A DNA stretch of 64,000 nt from Thermococcus profundus. Lineage in GTDB: Archaea; Methanobacteriota_B; Thermococci; Thermococcales; Thermococcaceae. Where the stretch lies: NCBI RefSeq assembly GCF_002214585.1, contig NZ_CP014862.1, positions 434,001-498,000 on the forward strand. Reading direction: 5' to 3'. The translations under genes were made by a program, and so were the position numbers. Positions 53,634 through 58,263 of this stretch are shown here, piece after piece. Numbering within the stretch: position 1 is the stretch's first letter; each line of letters starts with the position of its first letter. The notes beneath the pieces are model-generated. The model made no database searches and was not told the DNA's origin. It saw only the letters and a list, made by a program, of their open reading frames with translations.

Positions 53634-53647
53634 GGGGCTTCCCCTCA
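53631..53647 (+). terminator. Perfect 7-bp hairpin at the L14e stop
   Basis: TGAGGGG-CTT-CCCCTCA includes the L14e stop codon, and T-rich sequence (TTCTTCTTGTTCTTTG) follows some 20-40 bases later. This is a plausible end for the upstream ribosomal transcript. Confidence 0.5.
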
Positions 53648-53760
53648 CAACTCTTACTATCCCCGTGAATTCTTCTTGTTCTTTGTCACCTTTTGACTGT
53701 TCTTGGCATGAAGATTCTCTGTTATTGAACGTTTTCACATATCGCTTTACGTATTAGGTG

Positions 53761-53769
53761 GATTTATAA
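53761..53769 (+). promoter_or_regulatory. TATA box of cbf5
   Basis: GATTTATAAAG in the 180-base spacer between L14e and cbf5 is centred about 48 bases before ATG 53814, which gives a leader of roughly 22 bases carrying GGTGA. Confidence 0.5.
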
Positions 53770-53813
53770 AGTAGAGAGCGAACTTAGACCGATAACGCTC
53801 ACTGGTGATACTC

Positions 53814-54818
53814 ATGGCGAGGGACGAAGTGAGGAGAATCCTTCCCGCTGACATCAAGAGGGAGGTCGTTGTGAAGGATGAGAAGGCAGAGACCAACCCC
53901 AAGTGGGGATTTCCGCCGGAGAAGAGGCCCATTGAGATGCACATGAAGTTTGGCATAATAAACCTCGACAAACCCCCCGGTCCCACGAGTCACGAGGTCG
54001 TTGCGTGGATTAAGAAGCTCCTGAACCTGAGCAAGGCCGGCCACGGGGGAACGCTCGACCCGAAGGTGAGCGGCATTCTGCCGGTAGCTCTCGAGAGGGC
54101 AACGAGGGTCGTGCAGGCATTGCTCCCAGCTGGTAAAGAGTACGTTGCGTTAATGCACCTTCACGGCGACGTTCCTGAGGAGAGGATACTTGCTGTTATG
54201 AAGGAGTTCCAGGGGGAGATAATCCAGAGACCTCCGCTTAGGAGCGCAGTAAAGAGAAGACTGAGGACGAGGAAGGTTTACTACATAGACGTGCTTGAGA
54301 TAGACGGCAGGGACGTCCTCTTCAGGGTGGGTGTTGAGGCCGGAACATACATCCGTTCGCTCATCCACCATATTGGCCTTGCCCTTGGCGTTGGTGCCCA
54401 CATGGCAGAACTCAGAAGAACAAGGAGCGGCCCCTTCAAGGAGGACGAAACGCTGGTGACGCTCCACGATCTCATCGACTACTACCACTTCTGGAAGGAG
54501 GACGGAATAGAGGAGTACTTCCGGAAGGCAATCCAGCCGATGGAGAAGGCTGTGGAACATCTGCCCAAGGTCTGGATTAGGGATTCAGCCGTTGCCGCTG
54601 TTACCTACGGAGCTGATCTGGCCGTTCCGGGCATAGTCAAGCTCCACAAGGGCATAAAGAAGGGCGACCTCGTTGCGGTGATGACTCTCAAGGACGAGCT
54701 TGTTGCCCTGGGTAAGGCCATGATGACGACCGGGGAGATGATCCAGAAGAGCAGGGGCATAGCCGTCGACGTGGACAAGGTCTTCATGCCGAGGGACTGG
54801 TATCCGAAGATGTGGTAA
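53814..54818 (+). CDS. cbf5: rRNA/tRNA pseudouridine synthase Cbf5
   Basis: The 334-residue protein is the catalytic subunit of H/ACA guide ribonucleoproteins and also modifies tRNA U55. The catalytic Asp82 is in GGTLDPKVSG. TruB-like domain segments GIINLDKPPGPTSHEVV and GTYIRSLIHHIGLALG and a C-terminal PUA domain (about 250-330, VAAVTYGADLAVPGI) are visible. GTG 53805 is inside the GGTGA binding site, so ATG 53814 is taken. It is the last gene before the AT-rich insertion. Confidence 0.96.
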   Translation: MARDEVRRILPADIKREVVVKDEKAETNPKWGFPPEKRPIEMHMKFGIINLDKPPGPTSHEVVAWIKKLLNLSKAGHGGTLDPKVSGILPVALERATRVVQALLPAGKEYVALMHLHGDVPEERILAVMKEFQGEIIQRPPLRSAVKRRLRTRKVYYIDVLEIDGRDVLFRVGVEAGTYIRSLIHHIGLALGVGAHMAELRRTRSGPFKEDETLVTLHDLIDYYHFWKEDGIEEYFRKAIQPMEKAVEHLPKVWIRDSAVAAVTYGADLAVPGIVKLHKGIKKGDLVAVMTLKDELVALGKAMMTTGEMIQKSRGIAVDVDKVFMPRDWYPKMW

Positions 54819-54893
54819 CTCTAAGAGCAAAAATTGCAAAGAGAGCAAAATACTTATATAGCTCTTTATTTGTAATTATCTTTGGTGAGTAAC

Positions 54894-56708
54894 ATGCCTG
54901 TTGTGGGAAGAATAATTCCTGAAGAAAAATCATTGGAAGGTTTGTTATCTGAAAGCAATCGAATGTTTGAAATCCCTAAGTATCAGAGGAGATATAGTTG
55001 GGGAGAGGAGGCATTAGAGTTTTTAAGGGACATTTTTACAGTAGCTAAACACAAAGAATATTTTATTGGACCGATGATATTTATTGATAATGAGACACAA
55101 AACTCTAACACTAGAGTTTATGAAATCATTGACGGCCAGCAGAGGCTAATCACAACAGCAATGATTATAGCCATTATCCGAGATATGTTGTATATTTTGT
55201 CAGAGACTGTTGATGATCAGAATCTTAAAAGCGAAGCCCAAAGTGCTGCTTCGGGCCTTAATAGGCTAATTCTTCTTACAAACTATAGAGGAAGAGCAGT
55301 TGGTTCAAAATTTAAATATTCAGCTTATGATGAAGCTATTTTGAGAACATTAGTTGACAAAGGAGTTGTTAATTGGGTACATAATTACTTAGTAAATAAT
55401 CAGTCATTTGTTCCTAGAGAGGTTAGTAAACATTTGAAGAAACTTCTACGTGAGATGGGATATGGAAAATATTCAACAGTAATCTCAACTTATCTTGATC
55501 TATTTGAAGAAATTCCTAGTTTGTTATTTGGAGTTGATCCTGAAAACGAACTAATCTTGACACCAGAAATTATTACAATGGTGGATATGTTTATTGAAGT
55601 TCTTCAAAACGTCAAGACTGTTGTACTTATTGTGAATAATGAAAACGATGCATTTTTAATTTTTGAAACTTTAAATGATAGGGGTGTTAGATTGGGTCCA
55701 TTAGATCTGATAAAGAATTATCTTTTGATGATTTTAGCCAGAGAGACAAATGATAATGATAAGATAACTTTATATTCTAACCTGTGGGATGAACTAACGG
55801 GGGATAATAGTGATGCTGAGAGATACATATGGTATTATCTTTTAGTTAGGAGATACAGAGATTCTCCTGACTCACCTAAGCTTAGCAAGAAGAATCTATA
55901 TTCAGAGATTAAGAACAAAATACATACATCAGAGGACGTTGAGAATTTTATCATGGATCTTAAGAGAATCTTTGAGTACAAAGATATTCTTCGCGAGAAG
56001 TTCCCTTATGAGTATGATGATTTAGGTGAAGTGCTTACTAGAATTGAATCTCTGGGAGTGAAACAACACTTGCCCTTGGTATTTTCTCTAATACTTTGTG
56101 ATTCTATTGAACCTAAACTTGCTTTTCAGTATCTCTTTGATTTTTATAAACTCGCACTAAGATTTAAAATAACAAAAACAAATTGGAACAAAATAGAGAG
56201 AAGAATAGGGCATTTAATCAATGCAATATGTAGTTCTGACTATGAGAAGTATCAAGAAATTCTTATACAGATAATGCCTTCGGATGAGGTAACTAGGCAA
56301 TCGTTTATTGAGTATGTTGCTAAAAAACGCAATGACAACGTTGCACGGGAAGTTTTAGTGCGGATTAATGAATACATTCTTTCAAAGGAGAGTAGGCACC
56401 TAAGATCTAAACAAGGTCTTACTGTCGAGCACTTAATTCCAATATCGTCTAGTGAGCAGTATCCTGAAATCGACATGTTAGGTAATATCTTGTTAGTGGA
56501 CAGGGAATTAAATTCAAAATTAAAGAATAAACCTGTACCAACAAAAATCAAAATTCTTCTAGACGAAAAAGGAGATGATCTCCCCCTAAACAAAATAATG
56601 CTTGAGAACTTCAAACAAGCATCCAACGACATTAGCAAAGTTAGAAAGGTTATCAAAGATAGAACTATAAACCTAGCTGAACTTTTTGTTGAGGCAACAT
56701 CGATATAA
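54894..56708 (+). CDS. DUF262/DUF1524 protein, GmrSD-type defence nuclease
   Basis: The 604-residue protein joins a DUF262 ParB-like NTPase domain (about 1-280) with PKYQRRYSWGEE near 30 and IDGQQRLITTA near 83, and a C-terminal DUF1524 HNH-like nuclease (about 500-590) with TVEHLIPIS, LGNILLV and LNSKLKNKP. GmrSD-type enzymes cut DNA with modified bases. The gene is strikingly AT-rich, with A/T-ending codons, compared with cbf5 and S13 around it, a sign of recent transfer. TATA-like CTTATATAG lies at about 54852-54860, and GGTGA is five bases before ATG 54894. All key motif residues are present. Confidence 0.9.
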   Translation: MPVVGRIIPEEKSLEGLLSESNRMFEIPKYQRRYSWGEEALEFLRDIFTVAKHKEYFIGPMIFIDNETQNSNTRVYEIIDGQQRLITTAMIIAIIRDMLYILSETVDDQNLKSEAQSAASGLNRLILLTNYRGRAVGSKFKYSAYDEAILRTLVDKGVVNWVHNYLVNNQSFVPREVSKHLKKLLREMGYGKYSTVISTYLDLFEEIPSLLFGVDPENELILTPEIITMVDMFIEVLQNVKTVVLIVNNENDAFLIFETLNDRGVRLGPLDLIKNYLLMILARETNDNDKITLYSNLWDELTGDNSDAERYIWYYLLVRRYRDSPDSPKLSKKNLYSEIKNKIHTSEDVENFIMDLKRIFEYKDILREKFPYEYDDLGEVLTRIESLGVKQHLPLVFSLILCDSIEPKLAFQYLFDFYKLALRFKITKTNWNKIERRIGHLINAICSSDYEKYQEILIQIMPSDEVTRQSFIEYVAKKRNDNVAREVLVRINEYILSKESRHLRSKQGLTVEHLIPISSSEQYPEIDMLGNILLVDRELNSKLKNKPVPTKIKILLDEKGDDLPLNKIMLENFKQASNDISKVRKVIKDRTINLAELFVEATSI

Positions 56709-56765
56709 TTCTTCAATATAATTTGTTTCAAAATTCCTTCTTTTTCCCTTCTTCTGGTGTTTCCC

Positions 56766-57563
56766 ATGCAGGGAAAGAAAGGTCTCAAGCTAATAGTTGA
56801 GACCGTTGTTTTTGAGATTATCGTACTCATGGTGCTTCTCTTTTTTGCCGCCCGCAGTAGTGATGTGCCTGTTGATGTTGGGCTACTCGCGACGATGTTT
56901 GCCCTGTTGATCCCTTTTGGGATTTCTGCTGTCTTCTTCCTTGGCCGATACCTTGAGAAGCACGACTATCGGCGGGAAGACGTTAAGCGGCTCTACATAG
57001 CCCTTGAGGAGACCTGGGGCAGGGACAGGTTCGTGAAGGACGTGCAGGAGATAATTGGTTACCACATAATAGCTTGGTATCTGCTCGGCATGGCCTTTTT
57101 CATGACTGGAAACGTTGTGGAAGCGGCAATTTCTGTTGTCGCCATATCCCTCAAGATTTTTTCATTCACTCCCCTCTTCCTTCTCATGTGGCAGTGGATA
57201 ATAGACATTCCTTTCACTTTGTACGCTCTCGCCTCTGGAAAGGAATGGACGGTAACATCTGCTAGGAACACCGGCCTGTGGATTATACAGGCCTCCATAT
57301 TTGGCGCTGGTTTGCTGGTTGGTATCTATTTCCTGGGACATACCGTAGAGAACTCTTCCCTTGAGATTGTCGAGCGCCTTTTAAAGTTGGGCAGAAACGG
57401 TCACATCATCAAAAACCTCCTCCTGCTGTCCGTGCAGAGTGCCGTCTTTGGTGCCGTTGAGGCTTACTTCTTCCCAAAGCGCAAAAAGCTGGCCTTCCTT
57501 GTCCTCATCGCTGTTGCGGCCTTGGGTACGGTCATTGTTTGGGACATGCTGTTGGGTGCTTGA
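56766..57563 (+). CDS. Polytopic membrane protein of unknown function
   Basis: The 265-residue protein has about seven hydrophobic segments; a charged loop (YLEKHDYRREDVKRLYIALEE) lies between the second and third. No family was recognised. The base composition is like that of the chromosome, unlike the gene before it. GGTGTTTCCC precedes ATG 56766. It could be an accessory of the DUF262 protein, but composition argues for independent history. Confidence 0.72.
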   Translation: MQGKKGLKLIVETVVFEIIVLMVLLFFAARSSDVPVDVGLLATMFALLIPFGISAVFFLGRYLEKHDYRREDVKRLYIALEETWGRDRFVKDVQEIIGYHIIAWYLLGMAFFMTGNVVEAAISVVAISLKIFSFTPLFLLMWQWIIDIPFTLYALASGKEWTVTSARNTGLWIIQASIFGAGLLVGIYFLGHTVENSSLEIVERLLKLGRNGHIIKNLLLLSVQSAVFGAVEAYFFPKRKKLAFLVLIAVAALGTVIVWDMLLGA

Positions 57564-57603: not shown

Positions 57604-58191
57604 ATGGGTCACTACTACTCAGAAGAGCCGAACACTCCGCTGAAAACAAAGACGATCGAAGTCTGTGTTAGGGGGTACTGCTTCAAGTTTGTCACGGCCA
57701 GTGGGGTCTTCTCATTCGGAAAGCTCGACAGGGGCACCGAACTGCTCATTGAGAGCATGGTACTGGATGAAGATTGGAGGGTCTTGGATCTGGGTTGTGG
57801 CTACGGCCCAATAGGCATCGTAGCCTCCCGCTTCGTGGACTACGTCGTCATGACTGACGTGAACAAAAGGGCTGTGAGTATAGCAAGGAAAAATTTAAAA
57901 ATCAACGGCATTAGGAACGCTGAAGTGCGCTGGGGGAGTCTCTACGAACCCGTTAGAGGGGAAAAGTTTGACACCGTAATCACAAATCCCCCGGTTCATG
58001 CTGGCAAGGACATCCTGAGGGAAATAGTTATAAACGCCCCACAGCATCTCAACGACGGGGGGTTGCTTCAGCTGGTCATCCGTACCCGACAGGGCGCAAA
58101 CTATATTAAGGCCCTGATGGAGGAGAGCTTTACCGAAGTGAGAGAGCTGGCTAAGGGAAGCGGATATCGGGTGTATGCCGGGATCGCCTAG
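57604..58191 (+). CDS. RsmC-like class I methyltransferase
   Basis: The 195-residue protein is a SAM-dependent methylase of the MJ0882/RsmC small-domain type. The SAM-binding loop [13 protein letters not shown] (about 61-73), the acidic TDVNKRAVS (about 84-92) and the catalytic NPPVHAG (about 127-133) are visible; NPP(Y/F/H) motifs mark enzymes acting on the exocyclic amine of G or A, so rRNA or tRNA is the likely target. The last five codons and stop overlap the first 15 bases of the tRNA-Ser gene. Confidence 0.88.
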
Positions 58192-58263
58192 CCTGGGATG
58201 GCGCGGGCCTTGAGAGCCCGTGTCCGCTTGGACACCGGGGTTCAAATCCCCGTCCCGGCGCCA
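58177..58263 (+). tRNA. tRNA-Ser (UGA)
   Basis: A class II tRNA folds from here: acceptor GCCGGGA with TCCCGGC, anticodon stem CGGGC/GCCCG with loop CTTGAGA (anticodon TGA), long variable arm TGTCC-GCTT-GGACA, and T arm CGGGG-TTCAAAT-CCCCG. Discriminator G is at 58260 and CCA is encoded. The first 15 bases lie in the end of the methyltransferase gene. Confidence 0.95.

Follow-up and report, generated by a model that had tools for sequence, protein, structure and literature searches.

We find that the DNA directly after cbf5 holds one intact gene for a GmrSD-like protein, and we judge it probable, at about 70%, that this gene is a recently and laterally acquired single-protein DNA nuclease of the GmrSD family (type IV-like), lodged in a gene-exchange hotspot. 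A lateral origin is supported by a GC3 of 0.29 and by the absence of the gene at this site from the other 93 Thermococcales genomes and from relatives with the same neighbours. From domain and motif matches, we show that the predicted protein fuses DUF262 to DUF1524 with its nucleotide-site and E-H-N-N motifs intact, and that it lies in a 1.92-kb insert with promoter-like and putative ribosome-binding sequences. Throughout, the window is the whole 64-kb stretch of DNA that was analysed.

A solitary AT-rich gene between cbf5 and ORF268

The gene, its insert and its surroundings have the following window coordinates:

53814..54818, + strand: cbf5 (TruB/dyskerin-family pseudouridine synthase), left flank (Pfam TruB_N, TruB_C_2, PUA, DKCLD)
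54816..56737, + strand: inserted segment, about 1922 bp, GC 0.331 (homology break against relatives with ORF268)
54853..54860, + strand: TATA-like box CTTATATA with an A-rich BRE-like sequence upstream (sequence inspection, motif count)
54884..54889, + strand: putative ribosome-binding site GGTGAG (fits the T. kodakarensis consensus)
54894..56708, + strand: GmrSD-like gene, 604 aa, intact, solitary (ORF list, Pfam, PADLOC, composition, alignment)
54936..55727, + strand: GmrSD_N / DUF262 domain (aa 15–278) with QR 31–32, DGQQR 80–84 and FxxxN 257–261 (Pfam PF03235, 3.9e-31)
56277..56627, + strand: GmrSD_C / DUF1524 His-Me finger nuclease domain (aa 462–578) with E512, H513, N531 and N540 (Pfam PF07510, 4e-9)
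56766..57563, + strand: ORF268 (265 aa from ATG), predicted membrane protein by inspection, resident beside cbf5 in nuclease-less relatives
57604..58191, + strand: class I methyltransferase (MTS domain), right flank of the variable interval (Pfam PF05175, 2.1e-44)
58177..58263, strand not given: tRNA-Ser

The best start is the ATG at 54894 behind GGTGAG, with the stop at 56708; the ORF list also gives a TTG at 54882. In agreement with the sequence-only reading, the composition of the gene is foreign. Its GC of 0.336 and GC3 of 0.291 lie far below those of cbf5 (0.560 and 0.722) and S13 (0.562 and 0.738), and its GC3 is the lowest among the 71 non-overlapping window ORFs of at least 100 aa used as reference (mean 0.660, s.d. 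0.092). A model search of the host genome found a single GmrSD_N gene, the one in the window.

That reading also gave the gene its own TATA box and a good binding site, and as sequence features a TATA-like box and a putative ribosome-binding site are there. YTTATATA occurs once in the 64-kb window, both strands counted, and appears in 3% of mononucleotide shuffles of the 75-nt leader, a test that is weak because the leader is AT-rich. For T. kodakarensis, PMC4247193 places the TATA box about 23 bp from the transcription start site and gives GGDGRD as the ribosome-binding consensus; by the 23-bp rule, transcription of the window gene would start near 54880–54884. A sigma-70-type promoter scan was set aside as not meaningful for an archaeal host.

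The edges of the insert were placed by blastn against G028, G024 and G041, in which ORF268 directly follows cbf5 and there is no GmrSD gene. DNA homology reaches as far as 54815, where cbf5 has its last sense codon, and picks up again upstream of ORF268 at 56738–56743, depending on the relative compared; the gap at 54816–56737 therefore identifies the segment as an insert. One ORF, that of the GmrSD-like gene, lies between cbf5 and ORF268, and the insert holds no recombinase or transposase gene. Because cbf5 ends four residues later in the ORF268-bearing relatives that lack the insert, the stop codon of cbf5 in the window may itself come from the insert. A cbf5 ending at the same Trp codon is also found in G037, G069, G022 and G032.

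The gene had been described as lying between cbf5 and S13, and it does follow cbf5. However, cbf5 and S13 are not direct neighbours here: ORF268, the methyltransferase gene and tRNA-Ser intervene, so the site is a junction of two blocks and not the interior of a tightly packed operon. ORF268 has no Pfam family above cut-off and none in NCBIfam or PADLOC. The methyltransferase gene has a match in all 94 Thermococcales genomes, with a best match of E <1e-100 in 86 of them. The tRNA-Ser overlaps the final 15 bases of the methyltransferase ORF.

We rejected three further accounts of the insert. Integration targeted to a tRNA does not fit, as tRNA-Ser is over 1.4 kb away from the insert, on the far side of the methyltransferase gene, and the methyltransferase–S13 distance is nearly constant (95–274 bp in 59 of the 60 genomes in which it was measurable). 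Transposition as a visible mechanism is rejected, because neither terminal inverted repeats nor a target-site duplication across the edges was recognised and the insert holds no transposase; the repeat listing around the edges gave short or imperfect repeats only, although the traces of an old transposition may have disappeared. Assembly error or contamination was dismissed, since the segment sits inside a 2.0-Mb contig of a two-contig genome (2.04 Mb) with native flanks on both sides.

The same gene at this place in most Thermococcales would argue against recent transfer, and we looked for it; the gene is there in one of the 94 genomes, so recent transfer stands. This also bears on the reading that the gene is ancestral to the superoperon and has drifted in composition, which we regard as extremely improbable: nothing in its favour was found, the related ORF268-bearing genomes show an empty site, and these empty sites refute it unless many losses are assumed.

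The cbf5–methyltransferase junction across Thermococcales

We compared the interval from cbf5 to the methyltransferase gene in the 75 of 94 genomes in which both genes lie on one contig (three with a shortened cbf5 match); the other 19, in which the two genes fall on separate contigs or one of them lacks a good match, were dropped. Interval lengths run from 9 to 4921 bp: below 150 bp in 15 genomes, 150–300 bp in one and above 300 bp in 59, of which 34 exceed 1000 bp. An ORF of at least 150 aa lies within the interval in 42 of the 75. As a control, 11 junctions from secY to rpoD were measured in 60 of these genomes. Nine stay below 300 bp in every genome in which they were measurable (n = 46 to 59). 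The L14e–cbf5 junction also varies (113–4326 bp, above 300 bp in 43 of 49), and the cbf5–methyltransferase junction varies most of all (above 300 bp in 49 of 60). The superoperon is therefore tight except on both sides of cbf5.

Two of the initial claims change in this light. The gene had been assigned to the most conserved part of the genome, an unexpected place for it; its junction is instead one of the two variable ones among the 11, and the next conserved gene is the methyltransferase and not S13, which makes the location less surprising than was claimed. The site after cbf5 had also been called a neutral docking point, to be checked by comparing the interval across Thermococcales. That comparison on the cbf5 side found empty sites as well as other cargo, in 21 families with a member of at least 150 aa (single linkage). 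Docking is thus upheld, but neutrality was not borne out.

Several observations concern single genomes. In the window, L14e and cbf5 are about 180 bp apart (53634–53813), and in relatives the distance is commonly near 840 bp, with an SDR-like ORF (by eye). G014 has 4326 bp at this junction, with a 996-aa ORF that by eye is of P-loop type. In G068, cbf5 and a broken ORF268 relative share a 40.8-kb contig (L161) and the methyltransferase gene is on another; the contig extends past the ORF268 relative, indicating a rearrangement or a large insertion at the cbf5 junction.

Among the cargo, one type of secreted precursor recurs as a family, whose nine longer members come from nine genomes:

L142:944-1939, − strand: secreted precursor
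L146:937-1866, − strand: secreted precursor
L124:827-1783, strand not given: secreted precursor
L138:1155-2060, − strand: secreted precursor
L121:490-1473, strand not given: secreted precursor
L133:1384-2370, − strand: secreted precursor
L099:861-1925, strand not given: secreted precursor
L097:541-1377, strand not given: secreted precursor
L116:774-1469, strand not given: secreted precursor

Their N-terminal parts share a mean pairwise identity of 0.72; the C-terminal parts, of 48–110 aa with 8–12 Cys, have a mean identity of 0.24. The NCBIfam model halocin_C8_dom matches the C-terminal part of L142 at 45.2 bits, above the cut-off of 24, and that of L146 at 19.4 bits, below it; the other members scanned gave no match to this model. 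PMC4158269 describes variable, Thermococcus-specific loci for secreted proteins that are thought to be bacteriocin-like. Further cargo comprises small membrane proteins, an IS607 pair with TnpB (G055), ABC transporters (G018, G021, G093), a CLC channel (G004) and a PKD-repeat protein (G090); for most cargo proteins Pfam and NCBIfam gave nothing useful. When PADLOC was run on ten cargo proteins of other genomes, one matched, the IS607 TnpB of G055 with Cas12f-type models. With one match in ten, the site is not a classical defence island, although it could still be a conflict locus.

Some of this cargo is damaged: ORF268 relatives in G041, G068 and G069 contain stops, and halocin-like precursors are fragments in G037, G069 and G070. 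Such decay, together with the foreign composition and solitary placement of the GmrSD-like gene, would suit a reading in which it is a passenger: a defence gene that once worked, was swept along by hotspot recombination and is now unexpressed or useless at high temperature. However, its reading frame is fully intact, no catalytic residue is missing, and both a TATA-like box and a ribosome-binding site that fits the consensus precede it; we consider the passenger reading unlikely.

The clearest view of cargo movement comes from G080, compared in 100-nt steps with G069, which belongs to a different genus, and with its congener G074. Along cbf5, identity of G080 to G069 is 0.71–0.81, until the final 100 nt of the gene reach 0.92 and the DNA immediately after it 0.98. 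The 400 nt leading up to the methyltransferase gene stand at 0.92–1.0, and past the first 100 nt of that gene identity drops to 0.60–0.74 again. Identity to G074 is 0.98–1.0 upstream and into cbf5, 0.79–0.81 in the last 200 nt of cbf5 and again 0.98–1.0 from about 300 nt into the methyltransferase gene. This pattern is that of an interval imported through crossovers in conserved flanks. The fit is less good at two points: identity to G074 already dips, though less strongly, in mid-cbf5 (0.86–0.95), and it is 0.90 in the 100 nt past cbf5, a stretch common to several genomes of both genera (cluster CL4). Viewed as a whole, L202 (G080) set against L185 (G069) and L204 (G074) is a mosaic interval, 96–99% identical across genera between flanks of about 75%, and its crossovers fall close to the 3′ end of cbf5 and within the methyltransferase gene.

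Most of the sharing is of a more ordinary kind. At least 400 bp of the interval is shared by 131 genome pairs, and the wider region was assessed in 98 of them. Interval identity exceeds that of both cbf5 and the S13–S4 stretch by more than 5 points in eight pairs (not independent, as four of the eight involve G080) and exceeds both at all in 15; the remaining 83 fit ordinary descent. G018 (L091) and G021 (L131) have in common a 2857-bp ABC-type cassette, 96.1% identical and in opposite orientations, with flanks at 91.9–94.0%. The excess of 2.1 points is small, and inversion in place would account for this cassette as well as two insertions. Taken together, the identity profiles indicate that cargo has crossed genera through recombination in the flanks; they bear on cargo other than the GmrSD insert.

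We tentatively propose, at somewhat below even odds, that the cbf5–methyltransferase junction is a standing exchange locus for conflict genes, in which ribosomal-block genes would serve as recombination arms for cassette swaps across genera. The cassettes would carry halocin-C8-like precursors, with a constant secreted N-terminal part and a hypervariable Cys-rich, toxin-like tail, along with membrane proteins possibly acting in immunity, transporters and, here, an antiviral nuclease. Searches of open-licence papers gave no description of a hotspot at this junction. The site outweighs the gene, which adds one archaeal member to the known GmrSD family: it is a concrete place where hyperthermophilic archaea trade accessory genes, at the GmrSD insert without an integrase, tRNA or attachment site in view. 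A long-conserved ribosomal gene order can thus hold a fast-exchanging window, and a candidate family of archaeal antimicrobial precursors is indicated in Thermococcales.

Domains, relatives and possible mode of action

The DUF262/DUF1524 assignment made from the sequence was confirmed by Pfam. PF03235 scores 109.2 bits against a cut-off of 33.2 and PF07510 scores 36.9 bits against 23, so that both domains of the fused protein stand above their curated cut-offs. In the comparison across genomes, GmrSD_C here scores 40 bits, lower than in four other Thermococcus genes (71–102 bits) and higher than in G011, G039, G031 and G016 (25–34 bits). PMC4619093 defines the GmrSD motifs as (I/V)(I/V)DGQQR, a QR pair and FxxxN in the N-terminal domain, and E/D-H-N-N and NxxFxxKK. 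We located Q31 R32, IIDGQQR (D80–R84) and F257–N261, and in the nuclease domain VEHLIP (511–516) and LGNILLVDRELN (529–540), which supply E512, H513, N531 and N540. The motif residues reported by the sequence-only reading, DGQQR, EHLIP and the HNH-like asparagines, are accordingly all present. N540 sits one residue beyond the published L(G/A)NLxLLxxxN spacing, with the same shift in the aligned DndI sequence, and the NxxFxxKK equivalent is a degenerate NKPVPTKIK that retains N and K and has V for F. All of these residues except those of the degenerate motif (Q31 R32, D80–R84, F257–N261, E512, H513, N531 and N540) are invariant in a 7-row alignment of the window protein with four Thermococcales genes (L082–L085) and two plasmid genes. 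In a 25-row alignment with 24 proteins of viral contigs, Q31 R32, D80–R84, F257, N261, E512, H513 and N531 are invariant and N540 is nearly so.

Near relatives or a donor were not found among 115 genomes of the phylum or in plasmid, phage and viral-contig records. A protein search of Thermococcales (E ≤0.001) gave a match in 4 of 94 genomes, the host included: relatives in G068 and G036 align over residues 10–542 at 26% identity, and a second gene in G068 and one in G020 match over 80–90 residues, all at other genomic places. The GmrSD_C model matches in 10 of the 94 genomes, above cut-off in 8, and none of the other matches is at the cbf5 site. Phylum-wide, 5 of 115 genomes have a match. The 72,556 plasmid records gave 193 matches, the best at 27.6%; the 50,697 phage records gave 11, the best at 26.4% over 95%, and one at 43% spans only 13%. 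Viral contigs gave no match in a single-sequence search; an alignment search found 133 relatives, of which 80 were kept, with 21–38% identity in the best segment. By sequence, the nearest relatives share 19–28% identity across most of their length, and specificity can therefore not be transferred from them.

The top PADLOC profile is HEC-06 (187.7 bits, E 8.8e-56, in two stretches), the best of 29 families and one for which no cut-off is given; SspE and type IV profiles match more weakly. PMC12988326 describes HEC-06 as a mostly bacterial system of one gene, shown to act against viruses, whose archaeal copies probably arrived by transfer.

An AlphaFold2 model built from the 25-row alignment has a mean pLDDT of 73.2, with aa 128–182 poor. 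When Foldseek candidates were aligned to this predicted model with VIA-align, DndI topped the ranking (Z 24.4 over 515 residues, 5.8 Å), followed by SspE (Z 21.9 and 20.8) and BrxU (Z 13.8 and 12.9). The rows ranked under BrxU are single-domain matches, of which we interpret ParB alone: nucleotide-bound ParB matches the N-domain at Z about 4.7. Full-length alignments to SspE and BrxU have an rmsd of 16–20 Å, so domain placement differs or is unreliable, and Foldseek itself at E ≤0.001 returned SspE alone, with low TM-scores (0.23–0.35).

Given these matches, the protein could be a DndI- or SspE-like nuclease that senses phosphorothioate, either to leave marked self DNA alone, as DndI does, or to attack foreign DNA that carries the mark. 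DndI is also the best PDB sequence match (9jfl_B; 9JFL is DndI according to PMC11662687), and in that alignment Y30 of the window protein falls on the DndI sensing residue Y25. However, L084 and L085 have a tyrosine there too, and other members of the 7-row alignment carry F; the tyrosine is not specific to DndI, and Y30 is therefore weak evidence. Moreover, self-protection needs dnd genes, and in the host genome the dndC model (TIGR03183) reaches 25.4 bits where 290.4 are needed, on an ORF that by eye is PAPS-reductase-ferredoxin-like, and dndD (TIGR03185) reaches 18.7 where 245.85 are needed. As reported in PMC10952713 and PMC11662687, DNA marks are sensed in this family by DUF262, which binds NTP and hydrolyses it, and nicking or cutting falls to DUF1524; modified-cytosine DNA is the target of GmrSD and BrxU, and phosphorothioate activates SspE but restrains DndI, which becomes toxic to the producing cell when phosphorothioate is missing. 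Because of this toxicity and the lack of dndC or dndD above cut-off, a DndI-type arrangement is unlikely, and by analogy with the family a type IV-like or trigger-dependent enzyme appears the better bet. The phosphorothioate-sensing reading as a whole we hold to be quite unlikely.

For the preferred reading, a laterally acquired type IV-like nuclease, we hypothesize that the ParB/sulfiredoxin-like N-terminal domain would bind and hydrolyse NTP and sense some property of incoming DNA, with modification of a base or of the backbone as the likeliest candidate. A shape change would follow, enabling the His-Me finger domain at the C terminus to nick or cut the sensed DNA, and viruses or plasmids might thus be restricted without a partner methyltransferase. 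The conserved cbf5 and methyltransferase/S13 flanks, in turn, may tolerate insertions between the two blocks and let cargo move by homologous recombination; the gene would be where it is because this junction is an exchange hotspot.

Comparison with known systems

With GmrSD, Eco94GmrSD and BrxU, the window protein shares the layout of one chain with DUF262 followed by DUF1524 and the DGQQR and E/D-H-N-N motifs. In contrast to them, it is very distant in overall sequence, its NxxFxxKK motif is degenerate and its gene has no recognised defence neighbour in its interval. The phosphorothioate-sensing nickases DndI and SspE show the highest structural similarity and the same two domains, and DndI adds the aligned tyrosine; unlike DndI, the window gene has a host without dnd modification genes above cut-off. 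HEC-06, compared by profile match alone, resembles it as the best PADLOC profile and as a single gene. The Thermococcus DUF262/DUF1524 genes L082–L085 have the same two domains and the invariant motif residues, but they are 19–23% identical to the window protein and lie elsewhere in the genome. One of them (L082:477-4354) stands between a DpnII-family restriction enzyme and an N6/N4 DNA methylase, and by eye L083 has the same three-gene order. In Thermococcales the DUF262/DUF1524 family can therefore travel with restriction systems, and whereas the L082 gene is flanked by restriction genes, the window gene stands alone.
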